From Anaeromyxobacter oryzae (GTDB taxonomy: Bacteria > Myxococcota > Myxococcia > Myxococcales > Anaeromyxobacteraceae): DNA of 64,000 nucleotides. The position numbers were made by a program, and so were the translations under genes. The notes under the pieces are model-generated. The model was given only the letters and a program-made list of their open reading frames with translations, did not search any database and was not told the origin of the DNA. Position 1 is the stretch's first letter, and the number at the start of each line of letters is the position of its first letter. Below, in pieces: positions 2,441-32,863 of this stretch. The stretch is from positions 5,514,481 to 5,578,480 of the forward strand of contig NZ_AP025591.1 of assembly GCF_023169945.1 (NCBI RefSeq). Direction: 5' to 3'.

Positions 2441-3466
2441 GTGGCCGGGCCCCTCGACAGCGCCGCGGTGAAGGCGGCCGCCCGCCGCGCCGGCTTCTCG
2501 AAGTGCGGGATCGCGTGCGCGGAGCCGCTCGACCCGGCGCCGCTCGATCGCGTCCTCGCCCGCGGCGGCGAGGCCGACATGGTTTGGCTCCGCACGCAGC
2601 GCGCGGAGCGGCTCGATCCCGCCCGGCTCCTGCCCGGCGCGCGGAGCGTCGTCGCGCTCGCGCTCGCGTACGGCGCGGCGGCCGGCGACCCGGCGCCGCC
2701 GCCCGGCGCGGGGGAGGTGGCGCGGTACGCGCGGGGGCGCGACTACCACGCCGTCGTGAAGAAGAAGCTGAAGGCGCTCGCCGCGGGGATCGCGGAGGTG
2801 GACCCGGATGCCCGCGTGCTCGCGACGGCGGACGTCGCGCCCGTGATGGAGAAGGCCTGGGCGCAGCGGGCGGGGATCGGCTGGGTCGGGAAGAACGGCT
2901 GCCTCATCACGCCCGAGCACGGCAGCTGGGTGGTGCTCGCGACGGCGCTCCTCGACCGGGAGCTCGAGCCGGACCCGCCGCACCCGGAGCGCTGCGGGAG
3001 CTGCGACGCGTGCCTGCCGGCGTGCCCGACGGGCGCGATCCCCGAGCCCGGCCTCGTCGACGCGCGCCGCTGCATCTCGTTCTGGACGATCGAGCGGCGC
3101 GGGCCCATCCCCGGCGACGTCGCGGGCGGCCTCGGGCGGTGGATGTTCGGCTGCGACGACTGCCAGACGGCCTGCCCGTGGAACCGGGCCGGCGCCGTGG
3201 CCGGCGACCCCGGGCTCGCGCCCCGCCCCGAGCAGGCGGCCCTCGGGATCGACGACCTGCTCGCGCTGACCGAGGACGAGTACCGGCGGCGTTTCTGGGG
3301 CACGGCGCTGGCGCGGGCGCGTTACGACGGGCTCGTGCGCAACGCGGTCCTCGCGGCGGGGCGGTCCGGCGACCGCCGGTACCGCGCCGCGGTCGCGGCG
3401 CTCGCCGGGAGCCCGCACGAGGCCGTGCGGGAGGCGGCGCGGTGGGCGGTGGCGCGGCTCGGGTGA
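2441..3466 (+). CDS. queG: Epoxyqueuosine reductase QueG
   Basis: QueG performs the last step of queuosine synthesis on tRNA: cobalamin-dependent reduction of epoxyqueuosine to queuosine in the cytoplasm. The 341-aa protein shows the expected architecture. The conserved ADVAPVMEKAWAQ block contains the catalytic aspartate region. It is followed by GIGWVGKNGCLI, then two 4Fe-4S sites: CGSCDACLPACPTGAI (C-x2-C-x2-C-x3-CP) and CDDCQTACPWN with an additional cysteine in RRCISFW. The C-terminus resembles a HEAT repeat (SPHEAVREAARWAV), as in family members. The start codon is GTG and lies nine bases after the preceding stop. Other queuosine genes are not in the window. Length and motif order match the family, so the call is firm. 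Confidence 0.95.
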   Translation: MAGPLDSAAVKAAARRAGFSKCGIACAEPLDPAPLDRVLARGGEADMVWLRTQRAERLDPARLLPGARSVVALALAYGAAAGDPAPPPGAGEVARYARGRDYHAVVKKKLKALAAGIAEVDPDARVLATADVAPVMEKAWAQRAGIGWVGKNGCLITPEHGSWVVLATALLDRELEPDPPHPERCGSCDACLPACPTGAIPEPGLVDARRCISFWTIERRGPIPGDVAGGLGRWMFGCDDCQTACPWNRAGAVAGDPGLAPRPEQAALGIDDLLALTEDEYRRRFWGTALARARYDGLVRNAVLAAGRSGDRRYRAAVAALAGSPHEAVREAARWAVARLG

Positions 3467-3541
3467 CGGCGGCGCGCGGCGGCCATGCGGGCGGAGGCCG
3501 GCTCGCGCGCCGGGCGCCGGTCGGCTAGATTCCGGCCGCCG

Positions 3542-4402
3542 ATGGTTCACCTCGTGATGCTCCTGCACTCGGTCATCTCGGCCGGGACCTACCTCGCCGC
3601 GAAGCGGGCGCTCGGGGAGCTCTCGCCCTTCGAGGTGGCGCTCGCGCGGTTCACGCTCGCCGGGCTCGTGTTCGGCCTGCTCCTCTGGAGCCGGCACGTG
3701 CGCATCGAGCGGCGCGACCTGCTCGGGCTCGGGCTCCTCGGGTTCGTGGCCGTCCCGCTGAACCAGGGCTTCTTCCTCGCCGGGCTCGCCTGGTCGACGC
3801 CGGGGCACGCGGCGCTGCTGTACGCGCTCACGCCGATCTTCGTGTTCCTCTTCGCGCGCGTGCGGCTCGGGGAGCGGGCGACGGCGCTCAAGGTGCTCGG
3901 GATCGGGGTCGCGTTCGCGGGCGTGCTCGTCGTGCTCGGCGCGCGCGGCTCGGTCGCGCTCGGCGGGTCGTCGCGGATGCTCGCCGGCGACCTGCTCATG
4001 CTGCTCGCGGTCGTGGCGTGGGCGATCTTCGCCGTCGGCGGCAAGGTGTACGCGGAGCGGTACGGGCCCGTCGTGTCGACGAGCGCCGCGATCGTGGCGG
4101 GGACGGTGCTGTACCTGCCGGTCGGCTTCGTGGCGTCCGACCTGCACCGGTTCGCGAGGCTCTCGCCGGCGGGCTGGGCGGCCCTCCTGTACCTCGTGGT
4201 GTTCACGAGCGTCGTCGCGTACCTGCTCTACTACTGGTCGCTCGCGCGGGCCGAGGCGAGCCGCGTGGCGATCTGGTCGAACCTGCAGCCCGTGCTCACG
4301 GCGCTGCTCGCGTGGGGGCTGTACGGCGACCGGCTCACCGGGCCGTTCCTCGCGGGCGGGGCGATGGTGCTGGCGGGAGTGGTGCTGACGGAGCGGGGGT
4401 AG
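3542..4402 (+). CDS. EamA/DMT-family transporter
   Basis: The 286-aa protein is composed almost wholly of hydrophobic helices, about ten in total, in two tandem halves, as in the drug/metabolite transporter (EamA) superfamily. Typical features are the first helix with an AAKRALGELSPFEVALARF segment and the second-half segment SRVAIWSNLQPVLTALLAW, which matches the conserved end of the second EamA repeat. Such proteins export or import small metabolites across the inner membrane; the substrate cannot be predicted. The ATG at 3542 is preferred to an in-frame ATG at 3485 because the upstream extension is Arg/Ala rich and unlike a transporter N-terminus. The stop codon lies inside a perfect tandem duplication (4390-4423). 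Confidence 0.85.
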   Translation: MVHLVMLLHSVISAGTYLAAKRALGELSPFEVALARFTLAGLVFGLLLWSRHVRIERRDLLGLGLLGFVAVPLNQGFFLAGLAWSTPGHAALLYALTPIFVFLFARVRLGERATALKVLGIGVAFAGVLVVLGARGSVALGGSSRMLAGDLLMLLAVVAWAIFAVGGKVYAERYGPVVSTSAAIVAGTVLYLPVGFVASDLHRFARLSPAGWAALLYLVVFTSVVAYLLYYWSLARAEASRVAIWSNLQPVLTALLAWGLYGDRLTGPFLAGGAMVLAGVVLTERG

Positions 4403-5589: not shown

Positions 5590-5808
5590 CTACGCCTCCG
5601 CGACCGGGATCTCGGGGCCCTTCGCCCGGTCCTGGCGCTCGGGCAGCGAGTCCAGCTCGCGCCGTACGATCGCGAGCTCGTCCTTCAGCTCTGCCCGGAG
5701 CGCGCGGATCTCGCCGCGCACGTCCTCGAACGTGTACCGGATCTCCTCCGCGGAGATCCCGAGCAGCCGCCGGCGGACCTCCGACACGAACGCATCGATG
5801 AGCCGCAT
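5590..5808 (-). CDS. Small coiled-coil protein encoded behind the peroxiredoxin
   Basis: The 72-aa product is not recognised. It is rich in Glu, Arg and Leu with a heptad-like spacing (EEIRYTFEDVRGEIRALRAE), so a single long helix or coiled coil is likely. No signal peptide, cysteine or membrane segment is present. Its ATG starts two bases after the TAG stop of the selenocysteine-type peroxiredoxin gene, which suggests translational coupling and a shared transcript. The reading frame extends far upstream as an open frame, but only the segment after the peroxiredoxin stop looks like real protein. The function is unknown; an accessory role to the peroxiredoxin is only inferred from position. 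Confidence 0.6.
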   Translation of the reverse strand: MRLIDAFVSEVRRRLLGISAEEIRYTFEDVRGEIRALRAELKDELAIVRRELDSLPERQDRAKGPEIPVAEA

Positions 5809-5810
5809 GG

Positions 5811-6305
5811 CTACGTCCCCTTGTTCTTGTGCACCGGGCACGACGCGATCGCTCCCGCCGGATCGATGGCGTCGCTCCCGGTTACGATCTGCTTCACCGT
5901 GCCGTCCTTGTCGAGGACGAACGTGGCGCGGTTCGCGAGGCCGAAGATCATCAGCCCTCCGTACTGCCTCGCCACCTTGCCGCCCGCGTCCGAGAGCAGC
6001 GGGTAGGGCGCCTTCGTCTCCTCCTTGAACCTCTTCTGAGTCGCCACGTCGTCCACCGACACGCCCACGATCTGGGCTCCCTTCCCGACCACGTCCGCGT
6101 ACCGATCCCGGTACGCCGAGATCTCGCGCGTTCAACCAGCGGTGAACGCCTTCGGGTAGAAGGCGAGGATGACCGGACCCTGCTCGAGGAGCTTCGACAG
6201 CATCACCGGCTTCCCGTCGGTATCGGGGAGGGTGAAGTCGGGCGCCTTGTCGCCGACCTTGAGCGGCGTCGCGCCGAGGAGCATCGCGACCAGCGGCAGC
6301 ATCAT
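5811..6305 (-). CDS. Selenocysteine-containing thiol peroxidase (peroxiredoxin, TGA read as Sec)
   Basis: Read through an in-frame TGA at 6132-6134, this is a complete 164-aa peroxiredoxin. Before the TGA it reads [18 protein letters not shown], then [13 protein letters not shown]. After it comes [15 protein letters not shown], then [26 protein letters not shown] and [15 protein letters not shown]. In AhpC/TSA and BCP-like enzymes the residue after FYPKAFTPG is the peroxidatic cysteine, so the TGA (codon 58) sits exactly there and probably encodes selenocysteine. A hairpin fitting a bacterial SECIS follows it. The only cysteine, Cys156, is near the C-terminus. The start is the first ATG of an ATG-ATG pair with GGAGG eight bases upstream. 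The N-terminus is short and hydrophobic and may be an export signal. The family reduces peroxides. A pseudogene is the alternative. Confidence 0.85.
6097..6134 (-). promoter_or_regulatory. Candidate bacterial SECIS element
   Basis: On the minus strand the TGA at 6134-6132 is followed after 22 nt by an apical loop, GGGATC (6109-6104). The loop is closed by a perfect 7-bp stem, GCGTACC (6116-6110) with GGTACGC (6103-6097). A short stem-loop, a G at the start of the loop and a UGA-to-loop distance of about 16-37 nt are the published features of bacterial SECIS elements bound by SelB. The fold was read by eye, not computed. Confidence 0.75.
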
Positions 6306-6393: not shown

Positions 6394-6807
6394 TCACGCG
6401 CGGAGCCGCTCGTACCGCGAGACGAGCACCTCGACGACGTCGCGGTGGTAGAAGCCGACCTGATCCGGCAGCTCCGCGAGGGTCCGCGCCGACCAGCCGG
6501 ACACGGGAGCGCCCGGCGCGGGGTCGCCGCCGGCGACGGCGCCGGCGAACACGAGCGCGAGGTGGTCGGCGTCGCCGACCCGCTCCGCCCGCGTCCCCAC
6601 GACCACCAGGTCCTCGAGATCGAGCCCGAGCTGCGCCTTCACGATCGCGGCGGCCTTCTCCCCGGGCTGCTCACCGGCGTCGAGGACGCCGGACGGGAGC
6701 CAGAAGCGGCCGAGCTGCGCCTGGCCGTGGAAGCCGCCGATCACCTCGGCGACGACGATCCGCCGCGCCTCGAGCACGATGGGGACGACGTCGATCCGGA
6801 CGATCAT
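6394..6807 (-). CDS. Nudix-like protein with degenerate Nudix box
   Basis: The 137-aa protein has the length and layout of a Nudix hydrolase domain. The region around [22 protein letters not shown] is the usual lead-in to the Nudix box. The box itself (consensus G-x5-E-x7-R-E-U-x-E-E-x-G-U) begins correctly as GVLDAGE, but the metal-binding REUxEE segment reads AIVKAQ, with none of the three key glutamates and no arginine. The C-terminal half ([16 protein letters not shown], then [11 protein letters not shown]) is otherwise typical. Active Nudix enzymes cleave nucleoside diphosphates linked to another group; this one may bind a nucleotide without hydrolysis. It lies 88 bp upstream of the peroxiredoxin on the same strand. 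Confidence 0.75.
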
Positions 6808-7370: not shown

Positions 7371-8399
7371 ATGCGCGCGGCGACGATCCGGGCCCACGGC
7401 GGCCCCGAGGTGGTCGAGGTCGGCGAGGTCCCCGAGCCGAGGCCCGGGCCGGGCCAGGTCGCGGTGGACGTCCGCGCGGCCGCGCTGAACCACCTCGACC
7501 TGTGGGTGCGCCGCGGGTGGCCGGGCCTCCACGTGTCGTTCCCGCACGTGCTCGGCTCGGACGTCGCGGGCGTGGTCGCGGAGGTCGGCCCCGGCGTCGA
7601 CGCGCCGAGACCGGGCGACGCGGTCGTGCTCTCGCCGGGCATCGGGTGCGGCCGCTGCCCGCGGTGCCTCGCCGGCGAGGAGAACCTCTGCCGCCGGTAC
7701 ACCATCATCGGCGAGCACGTCGCCGGCGGCCAGGCGGAGCGGATCGTGGTCCCGGCCCGGAACGCCCTCCCGAAGCCGCCGGCGCTCTCGTTCGAGGAGG
7801 CCGCCGCGGTGCCGCTCACGTTCCTCACGGCGTGGCACGCCCTCGCCGGCCGAGCGCGGGTGCGGACGGGCGAGACCGTGCTCGTGCACGCCGCGGGCTC
7901 CGGCGTCGGCGTCGCGGCGGTGCAGATCGCGAAGCTCCTCGGGGCGCGCGTCATCGCCACCGCCGGCTCGGACGCGAAGCTCGAGAAGGCGCGTGCCCTC
8001 GGGGCGGACGAGCTCGTGAATTACGAGACGACGGACTTCGTCCACGAGGTCAGGCGGCTCACCGACCGCCGCGGGGTCGAGGTCGTGCTGGAGCACGTCG
8101 GGAAGAAGACCTGGGAGGGCTCGATCCTCGCCGCCGCGCTCGGCGGCCGGATCGTGACGGTCGGCGCGACGACCGGGTGGGACCCGGTGACGGACCTGCG
8201 CCACGTCTTCTACCGGCAGCTCTCGATCCTCGGCTCGACGATGGGGAGCGCGGCGGAGCTCGCCCTGGTGCTGCGGTTCGTCGTCGAGGGCAAGCTCCGG
8301 CCGGTGGTGGACCGGGTGCTCCCGCTCGCGGCGGTCCGCGACGCGCAGGCGCTGCTTGCCGATCGCGCGCAGTTCGGGAAGATCGTGCTCACGCCCTAG
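7371..8399 (+). CDS. Zinc-containing medium-chain alcohol dehydrogenase
   Basis: The 342-aa protein is an MDR-superfamily NAD(P)-dependent dehydrogenase or reductase. It has the N-terminal GroES-like domain with a catalytic-zinc region (HVLGSDVAGVVAEVGPGV). The structural-zinc lobe is complete, with four cysteines in GCGRCPRCLAGEENLC. The Rossmann dinucleotide motif appears as HAAGSGVGVAAVQIAK near residue 170. Family members oxidise alcohols or reduce aldehydes, ketones or enoyl compounds; the substrate is not predictable. The start is the first ATG, and the C-terminus FGKIVLTP is typical. A lipoprotein gene follows after 11 bp with a strong ribosome-binding site, so the two may be co-transcribed. 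Confidence 0.88.
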   Translation: MRAATIRAHGGPEVVEVGEVPEPRPGPGQVAVDVRAAALNHLDLWVRRGWPGLHVSFPHVLGSDVAGVVAEVGPGVDAPRPGDAVVLSPGIGCGRCPRCLAGEENLCRRYTIIGEHVAGGQAERIVVPARNALPKPPALSFEEAAAVPLTFLTAWHALAGRARVRTGETVLVHAAGSGVGVAAVQIAKLLGARVIATAGSDAKLEKARALGADELVNYETTDFVHEVRRLTDRRGVEVVLEHVGKKTWEGSILAAALGGRIVTVGATTGWDPVTDLRHVFYRQLSILGSTMGSAAELALVLRFVVEGKLRPVVDRVLPLAAVRDAQALLADRAQFGKIVLTP

Positions 8400-8410
8400 A
8401 GGAGGGGATC

Positions 8411-8866
8411 ATGAACGGAAGGAACCTGACGCGCCTCGGCGCCATCGCCACCGTCGCGCTCGCCGTGGCGGGCTGCGGCCAGAGCAACACGAGCTGTCCC
8501 ACCGAGACGCCCAGGGTCGATCAGGTGCAGAGCTGTACCGTCGCTCCCGGTGCCACCGTCGGCGTCCGGCTCAACATCTGCCCGACCTGCAACCAGACGG
8601 CGGCGAGCTGCACCGCGGACCTGTCGCAGCTCGGATCGTCGAACACCATCGCTCTCGACCCGATCACCGACTCGTGCGAGCCGGCCAACTCGTGCCCGAG
8701 CCCGAGCTGCGCCGTGAACGGCGTGACCTGCACGTTCAACGCGCCGACGACGCCGGGTGACTACACGATGATCGTCTTCGATCCGGCGTCGAACGGCACC
8801 AGGTCCGCGACGCTGACGGTCGCCAGCGGACCGACGAGCTGCGCGTTCACGACGGCCGGGCTGTAG
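8411..8866 (+). CDS. Hypothetical lipoprotein, cysteine-rich
   Basis: This 151-aa protein begins with a classical lipoprotein signal: basic start, hydrophobic ATVALAVAG, then the lipobox cysteine in VAGCGQ. The mature part contains many cysteines in pairs (CPTC, CPSPSC) and a beta-rich end (GDYTMIVFDPASNGTRSATLTV), suggesting a disulfide-stabilised beta-sandwich on the outer face of a membrane. The ATG at 8411 follows GAGGAGGGG at ideal spacing. The frame is open upstream because it overlaps the dehydrogenase gene in another phase. No family is recognised. It ends four bases from the convergent htpX stop. Confidence 0.6.
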   Translation: MNGRNLTRLGAIATVALAVAGCGQSNTSCPTETPRVDQVQSCTVAPGATVGVRLNICPTCNQTAASCTADLSQLGSSNTIALDPITDSCEPANSCPSPSCAVNGVTCTFNAPTTPGDYTMIVFDPASNGTRSATLTVASGPTSCAFTTAGL

Positions 8867-31249: not shown

Positions 31250-32692
31250 CTAGAACCAGGTGTGCGCCGCGTCGGCGGCGTGGCACCCCTGCGAGCAGGT
31301 GTGCGCCGTCGTGCTGTACCCGAAGTTCGACTGCGCGGTCTCGGTGTTCACGGTGCCGTTCACGTGCAGTGTCGGGTTCACGAGGGTCGGCTGCGCGGGC
31401 GTGTTGTCCTGCAGGGGCGTGCCGTACCCCGTCCCGTGGCACGAGCTGCACCCGAGGTTCAGGTGCGCCGTCACCACGTGACCGTCGGTCGGGTTCGTCG
31501 TCTGCGCCGAGTGGCAGGTGTCGCACGCGTTCTGGCCCGACGTCGCCGTCCAGACCGGCACGTTGGGCGTCGTCGTGGACGCCTGCGCCTTCCCGTTCCG
31601 GAAGTTGCCATGGCAGTACACGTTCGAGCAGTTCCCGGTGTTCGGGTCGAACGCGCCGATGGCGTTCGCGGTCCCCGGCTGCTTCAGGGCGAGCTGCACC
31701 TGGCCGTTCACGTGGGAGATGTCCGTCGGGACCGTGTGGCAGTCCGTGCAGAGCACGCCGTCGGAGATCGGGTTCTCCGTCCGGCCGAAGAGGTGCGTCT
31801 GGTGGGCGCCCACGCCGAGGCTCGCCGGCGTGGTGTTCCCCTGCGTGTCCACGGGCGGCGCTGCGGGGTTCTGGCTGCGCGTCGACGTGCCGTGGCAGAA
31901 CGTGCAGTCCGTCCGCCAGGCGGCGGTCGCGTTCGTGTGGCACTTGTCGCAGGAGACGTTCGCGATGCCGCCGTCGAGGTTCGTGCCGTGGCACGTCCGG
32001 CAGTCGTTCAGGCCGTTCGGGTACGCCGGGTCGTGATAGTCCGCGGCGAGGCCGTGGATCATCACGTTGTTCGCGTTCACCGTGACCCAGTTCGCGGGGT
32101 GGCCGTTCACGTCCACGGTGCCGTTCATGTGCTTGCCGCCCGGGATCGGCGTCTCGTTCGCGTCGACGGTGTCGGCGTGGCAGGAGTGGCAGACCAGCGT
32201 CGCCGACGAGTGCGGCGCCACGCTGACCGGCGGGTAGCCGTGGCAGGAGGTGCAGTCCACCTGCCCGATGTCGCTCCAGCCGACGGTCGTCTTCGCGCCG
32301 TCGTGGAGCGTCGCGCCGTGGCAGTACGTGCCGGAGCAGGCATGGGTGGCGTGGTCGTACTGCGGGCTCGCGCCGTTCAGCTTGGCCGCGGGGCCGAACG
32401 TCACCGTCGCCGGGCCGCCGGTGATGTGGCCGGGCGAGTTCACGTTCTCGGGCACGACGTGGCAGGAGTCGCAGGTCACGCCGTCGTCGAGGTGAGTCGT
32501 GTGCGCGCCGACGGCGGGGGTCTTGTCGAGGCCGTTCCGGTCGTAGGGCGGCGCGCCGGTCGAGTTGTCCTTGCCGCCGTGGCAGCCGGTGCAGTTGCTG
32601 GCGGTGCCTTCCGCGAGCGGACGCGCGGAGTTGCAGCCCGTCAGGGCGGCGGCCAGCATGACCGCGAGTGATGCGATTCGGTGGGTGCGCAT
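31250..32692 (-). CDS. Multihaem c-type cytochrome lipoprotein, 13 haem sites
   Basis: The 480-aa protein has a lipoprotein signal ending in AAALTGC, so it is probably anchored in the outer membrane or on the cell surface. It contains ten CxxCH sites, two CX4CH sites (CSGTYCH, CSNVYCH) and one CX3CH site (CSQGCH) at the C-terminus, 13 potential covalent haems. CX4CH followed by a W and a CxxCH is the Geobacter-type CxxxxCH/CXXCH repeat domain. Spacer regions rich in Asn, Thr and Gly with isolated His residues (THL, AHQTHL) can supply distal haem ligands. Such proteins conduct electrons between periplasm and external acceptors such as metals. The ATG at 32692 is chosen for its signal peptide. 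A second, related cytochrome lies just upstream. Confidence 0.92.
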   Translation of the reverse strand: MRTHRIASLAVMLAAALTGCNSARPLAEGTASNCTGCHGGKDNSTGAPPYDRNGLDKTPAVGAHTTHLDDGVTCDSCHVVPENVNSPGHITGGPATVTFGPAAKLNGASPQYDHATHACSGTYCHGATLHDGAKTTVGWSDIGQVDCTSCHGYPPVSVAPHSSATLVCHSCHADTVDANETPIPGGKHMNGTVDVNGHPANWVTVNANNVMIHGLAADYHDPAYPNGLNDCRTCHGTNLDGGIANVSCDKCHTNATAAWRTDCTFCHGTSTRSQNPAAPPVDTQGNTTPASLGVGAHQTHLFGRTENPISDGVLCTDCHTVPTDISHVNGQVQLALKQPGTANAIGAFDPNTGNCSNVYCHGNFRNGKAQASTTTPNVPVWTATSGQNACDTCHSAQTTNPTDGHVVTAHLNLGCSSCHGTGYGTPLQDNTPAQPTLVNPTLHVNGTVNTETAQSNFGYSTTAHTCSQGCHAADAAHTWF

Positions 32693-32863
32693 GGTCGAGA
32701 GTCCTCGGCTCCTCGGCAGGACGATGCAGGCGCCCGGAACGCCGGGCGATTCCGGGGCAGAATGCCCCCGTCCGCGCGCGCGGAGCTTGTCCGTGATCAA
32801 GCCGGGCGCGGCTCGCCGGGGCTGCCCCGCTCCCACCGACCCGCATGCCGAGGGATCGCGGCG

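Follow-up and report, generated by a model that had tools for sequence, protein, structure and literature searches.

The 64,000-nucleotide stretch of Anaeromyxobacter oryzae DNA analysed here (the window) contains, at 5811..6305 of the minus strand, a gene that almost certainly encodes a true peroxide-destroying enzyme whose active-site UGA is read as selenocysteine (Sec). Translation, Pfam and 90 close homologues (its own locus included) define it as a peroxiredoxin (Prx) of 164 residues with Sec at residue 58. The frame, which runs from 6305 to 5811, has a single internal stop, the TGA of codon 58 (6132..6134), and translation together with the codons of the homologues assigns this codon, as Sec, to the peroxidatic position of the motif P-K-A-F-T-A-G-U (TxxU). 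This confirms the original prediction, which had placed a TGA where peroxiredoxins have their catalytic cysteine (Cys) and gave no strand; the residues flanking the TGA also read as given there. The AhpC-TSA domain (PF00578) was recognized over residues 17-139 (6.5e-39, 133.1 bits against a cut-off of 26). The start, ribosome-binding site and downstream coupling described earlier are also in place: GGAGG ends 8 bases 5' of the first ATG, the stop codon is TAG (5813..5811), and the ATG of a 72-aa open reading frame (ORF) follows 2 bases on. A reading by the standard code truncates and mis-annotates the gene, as had been foreseen, and the ORF list contains only a 93-aa C-terminal ORF in the peroxiredoxin frame. 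On the plus strand the first frame of 5811-6305 is open, yet it consists of low-complexity, arginine-rich text.

The downstream 72-aa ORF (5590..5808, minus strand) is charged and probably translated together with the peroxiredoxin; it was found by tblastn at 11 of 30 loci, that is, at 10 of the 29 loci other than its own. The upstream neighbour (6394..6807, minus strand) is a 137-aa ORF, presumably Nudix-like, present at 13 of 30 loci (own included), which forms a conserved neighbourhood; the mechanism does not require it. When the window was scanned for frames with coding-like GC3 that are bridged by a TGA, four rows came out, including the peroxiredoxin gene and 8389-8739. The frame at 2441-4402 was rejected as one ordinary ORF running on into another next to it, and that at 31260-32036 because it is antisense to a multihaem cytochrome-like ORF of 528 aa with many CxxCH motifs (31250-32836, minus strand). 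Elsewhere in the genome, two paralogous loci carry TGA peroxiredoxins. The second such gene (L114, C1:3316093-3316404, plus strand) is BCP-like, reads NTSG-TGA-TQEASDF and is followed by a 7-bp hairpin, with the loop placed 21 nt past the TGA. The third (L116/L115, C1:1133268-1134610, minus strand) reads AFTPV-TGA-TVQM and adjoins a Cys peroxiredoxin; a hairpin scan past the L116 TGA found nothing within the energy limit for a SECIS element.

The homologue search with the window peroxiredoxin covered 146 genomes, its own included, and 141 of them gave a match at E up to 1e-10. Ninety loci from 87 genomes were read, 30 from the search and 60 fetched, the window's own among them. Codon 58 is TGA in 55, TGC in 33 and TGT in two, and no other codon occurs there. 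That the TGA is more than chance is borne out by a TGA or Cys codon in 90/90 loci (own included), and the alignment that had been proposed as a check puts the Sec/Cys exchange exactly at position 58. The 55 TGA loci belong to 54 genomes from several genera and families; among the 146 genomes searched (own included), correct annotation is at stake in at least 54. Among the matches listed, which are a lower bound, a further 25 rows with E ≤2.9e-40 lie outside the 90; since none has an internal stop, they contain no TGA and probably have Cys, so that 55:35 does not represent a population frequency. Weaker matches are mostly outside the 90-locus set. Three genomes (G069, G112 and G121) each supply two loci, and the rows are therefore not all strict orthologues. 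The paralogues L114-L116 were excluded from the codon counts, and a search for related loci among the genome contigs gave one distant locus only.

The original prediction had called for a genome search for selA, selB, selC and selD, and selA, selB, selD and tRNA-Sec were all found in the window genome, which is a single 6.72-Mb contig. SelA scored 525 bits and SelB, about 12 kb from SelA, 312 bits. The tRNA-Sec match reached 76.9 bits against a cut-off of 47 and was called tRNA-SeC (tca) by ARAGORN; a second match, also above the cut-off at 49.2 bits, is a tRNA-Ser according to ARAGORN. As 5 of 14 control genomes also exceeded the tRNA-Sec cut-off, passing it is no proof in itself, and the 76.9-bit match lies well above it. 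SelD scored 382 bits and has an in-frame TGA of its own near the N-terminus (HGAG-TGA-ACK), so that Sec synthesis appears to need Sec. At this locus (L019, C1:4449674-4450603, plus strand) the TGA stands in LTSLSHGAG-TGA-ACKIRPADL and is followed by a fitting hairpin.

Of the 54 genomes with a TGA copy (own included), 52 had SelA above its cut-off, although so had 129 of all 146 genomes; co-occurrence of TGA and SelA was therefore to be expected and is weak evidence. The two TGA-copy genomes lacking a SelA match are both incomplete drafts: G138 (80% complete) has SelB and tRNA-Sec above the cut-off, and G136 (87% complete) has neither SelB nor tRNA-Sec over it. Neither G043 nor G079, two genomes with a Cys copy, has SelA, SelB or tRNA-Sec above the cut-offs, the best tRNA match of G079 reaching 46.8 bits against 47. 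The G079 assembly has two contigs and a completeness of 100, and its Cys copy (L076) has an intact SECIS-shaped hairpin. Because the Cys copy keeps this hairpin while no SelA, SelB or tRNA-Sec was found above the cut-off, G079 appears to have lost Sec decoding.

Downstream of the TGA, a bacterial SECIS hairpin is predicted at 6097..6116 (minus strand) from a fold scan, silent-site bias and pair counts. It has the form GCGUACCG-GGAU-CGGUACGC, with an 8-bp stem and a 4-nt loop, begins 15 nt past the TGA, places the loop 23 nt from the UGA, and has a folding energy of -13.1 kcal/mol. The limits given for bacterial SECIS elements in the consulted portion of PMC13188914 are a loop of 3-9 nt with G in the first two positions, a stem of 4-16 bp, a distance of 16-37 nt from UGA to loop, and an energy of -7.5 or below; the window hairpin lies within all four limits set out there. 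In a bulge-free scan, a fitting hairpin was found in 41/55 Sec rows (synonymous shuffles 1062/5500) and in 7/35 Cys rows (392/3500), leaving 14/55 Sec rows with none; the difference between Sec and Cys has a Fisher p of 4e-7 when the rows, which are related, are treated as independent. The full 8-bp stem is present in 36/55 Sec and 6/35 Cys rows.

Silent positions directly past the TGA are biased. At Ala+6 the third base lies in the stem, and GCG is used in 52/52 Sec and 20/26 Cys rows, against 529/1016 elsewhere in the Sec genes. Arg+8 supplies the first loop base with its third position, and CGG occurs there in 45/55 Sec and 9/25 Cys rows and in 99/289 cases elsewhere in the Sec genes. CGG at Arg+10, again in the stem, is above this same background of 99/289 in Sec rows (37/47), and Sec rows do not differ there from Cys rows (19/31, p 0.12). 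Ala+12, with its third base outside the hairpin, shows no bias against background (GCG 18/41, p 0.34). Moreover, when pair cells were counted in distinct rows, 172/208 were formed in Sec rows, a value reached by 0/500 shuffles, and 152/232 in Cys rows, reached by 226/500. In one clade (L044, L045) the fifth stem pair has changed from A-U to U-A on both sides.

The protein forces part of the hairpin, since the codons for AYRDRYA come close to a palindrome. In Cys rows 65.5% of cells pair, compared with 20-35% when the partner is slid, and 19/100 synonymous shuffles of the window's own sequence form a hairpin as stable as the real one. Folding energy over the 48 bases past the TGA is unremarkable against synonymous shuffles for the window (z -0.51), and mean z over the same stretch is -0.76 for Sec and -0.43 for Cys rows (p 0.098). 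On independent tree pairs the link between hairpin and Sec was not significant, with five pairs on well-supported branches being too few. Searched against Rfam with E values up to 5 allowed, 5950-6200 matched no family at threshold, and the only matches, two snoRNAs, were far below their gathering scores.

These observations bear on how the UGA is read. It might be suppressed, with Cys, Trp or another residue inserted in place of Sec, and relatives do have Cys at the same site; no direct support for this was seen, with a tRNA search limited to tRNA-Sec. Such decoding is very improbable given that tRNA-Sec (tca), SelA, SelB and SelD are encoded and that a hairpin of SECIS geometry lies 3' of the TGA. 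Furthermore, several homologues use TGA as their terminal stop, which shows that UGA is not globally reassigned. Even less credence is due to termination at the UGA followed by reinitiation, which would give a 57-residue N-terminal and a 93-residue C-terminal piece, the latter from the GTG at 6092, with no Sec. The ORF at 5811-6092 is indeed open and has this GTG start, but the thioredoxin fold would be split at its catalytic residue, the site holds only TGA or Cys in 90 loci, and the biased silent sites lie directly past the TGA.

Selection was assessed from codon-aligned sequences by dN/dS (NG86), separately upstream and downstream of the TGA. The alignment held 88 of the 90 rows, without L105 (cut off by its contig) and L106 (divergent), and its values are rough because silent sites are hard to count in GC-rich genes. 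The eight Sec rows around the window gave medians of 0.24 upstream and 0.437 downstream, with 0/28 pairs at or above 1 on either side, and seven Cys rows of the window's family gave 0.276 and 0.368. The 28 Sec rows of a second family (f4) gave 0.337 and 0.469 with no pair at or above 1, and the 28 Cys rows set beside them (one of them, L097, from f7) gave 0.382 and 0.529, with 14/375 and 19/378 pairs at or above 1. These comparisons point to purifying selection on the frame on both sides of the TGA. Thus the peroxiredoxin sequence is preserved on either side, as had been claimed, and decay of the frame among homologues, named beforehand as a refuting observation, is not seen, dN/dS in the window's group being below 1 before as well as after the TGA. 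The notion of a broken gene, in which a nonsense mutation that inactivates the gene, or else a sequencing error, has put the TGA into a decaying frame, can draw on the lone 93-aa C-terminal ORF in the ORF list, but it is refuted by the same TGA in 55/90 loci from several genera and families, runs against dN/dS below 1 either side and a complete Sec machinery, and has a negligible chance of being right. The reading of the gene as encoding an AhpC/TSA-class (BCP-like) thiol/selenol peroxidase, with UGA58 decoded as Sec, has a probability of roughly 0.96.

Comparison with known families supports a different label from the PrxU type that was first suggested. The PrxU model NF040737, which we take to represent PrxU of Eubacterium acidaminophilum, matches the window protein at 64.9 bits (E 8.4e-18) and its cut-off of 270 is not reached. 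The likeness to PrxU consists in being a peroxiredoxin with Sec in TxxU, whereas the PrxU model spans 233 positions and the window protein 164 aa. It is instead a shorter, BCP-like TxxU peroxiredoxin. The best-scoring NCBIfam model is NF006960 (BCP/PrxQ) at 86.7 bits, and the protein stays below the cut-offs of both BCP/PrxQ models (140 for NF006960, 260 for NF053650). The closest solved chains are the peroxiredoxins 5epf, 2ywn and 3drn, the last of which is named a Bcp homologue. In PrxQ a second Cys stands at +5 from the peroxidatic Cys. No Cys was found at this position in the 88 aligned rows; the window protein differs from BCP/PrxQ in having an invariant Cys about 98 residues downstream instead.

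The protein has both features of the TxxU Prx family, namely the AhpC-TSA domain and the motif F-T-A-G-U. It shares with the bacterial TxxU Prx selenoproteins (PF00578/COG1225 Bcp) the same domain, Sec at the peroxidatic site and Cys homologues, and no difference in kind is shown. The available text of PMC9312934 equates Prx with COG1225 (Bcp) and TxxU, and that of PMC5029168 counts 91 Prx selenoproteins in 78 organisms. The family is therefore not new, as had been recognized from the start. A figure legend on Prx (TXXU) selenoproteins in PMC1914089 includes A. dehalogenans among its abbreviations. For Anaeromyxobacter dehalogenans, three peroxiredoxins among 11 selenoproteins were listed in 2006 in the portion of PMC1794560 at hand, and the window genome has the same number of TGA-containing Prx genes (L024, L114 and L116). 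The window gene is likely the same as one of these three. Both the enzyme family and the form with selenium have been described before, and the window gene is a sound but ordinary new example.

A second residue stands out in the alignment. Only two columns have Cys in more than three of the 88 rows, and both are invariant: position 58 (Sec/Cys) and C156 of ...CPVHK. The codon of Cys156 (5838..5840, minus strand), the only other invariant Cys in 88/88 rows, is proposed to encode the resolving residue, as in a peroxiredoxin mechanism of the 2-Cys type, where a conserved Cys bonds to the peroxidatic residue. As expected, a helix follows directly on residue 58 in the AlphaFold2 model of the single window sequence; the model has a pLDDT of 61 and is too weak to place C156 or to judge the 58-156 distance. 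In the proposed mechanism, SelB with Sec-tRNA(Sec) would bind the predicted hairpin 15 nt downstream and the ribosome would insert Sec at UGA58. Sec58, just before the helix that follows TxxU, would then attack the peroxide, as is typical of the family, to give a selenenic acid. Judging from its conservation, Cys156 near the C-terminus most likely resolves this oxidised Sec58 to a selenenylsulphide, which a thioredoxin-like partner would presumably reduce. Relatives that code for Cys would carry out the same chemistry via Cys58.

The most worthwhile part of the study of this locus is the dense record of Sec/Cys exchange. A first tree of 90 rows needed 10 Sec/Cys changes; a careful tree of 89 rows (L106 omitted) needed nine, with a bootstrap range of 9-12 and at least seven forced by well-supported branches. 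One case is clear: L050 (TGT) is a Sec-to-Cys change by one base (TGA to TGT), nested among Sec relatives in a clade that comprises six Sec rows (support 93/80). The row nearest to it, L058, carries TGA and matches it in all 47 bases after the codon, and the genome of L050 (G134) has kept SelA. The full hairpin is kept in the Cys rows L047, L072, L075 and L076. On the first tree, a history of Sec-to-Cys changes only was rejected with a log-likelihood of -39.2 against about -34.8 for two rates, as was one of Cys-to-Sec changes only (-58.2 with one root, -46.0 with another). Under two rates, five changes were reconstructed on this tree in each direction, at node probabilities of 0.71-1.0; no predominance of losses is therefore claimed.

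Whether the Prx family in the window's bacterial order combines frequent two-way Sec/Cys switching with an enzyme working through a Sec58-Cys156 pair is put at even odds. For Prx, Table 1 of PMC1794560, as far as the consulted portion goes, counts five events from Cys to Sec and none from Sec to Cys; according to a 2026 review, Sec-to-Cys changes are rare and mainly affect FdhA and SelD. If true, the exchange record would therefore amount to a natural experiment, and a dense one, in the loss of selenium. Recent exchanges among TGA, TGT and TGC, and Sec and Cys enzymes that can be matched between close relatives, make the homologue set a good system for studying the benefit of selenium to a peroxidase and, equally, the decay of the SECIS hairpin after selenium is lost.
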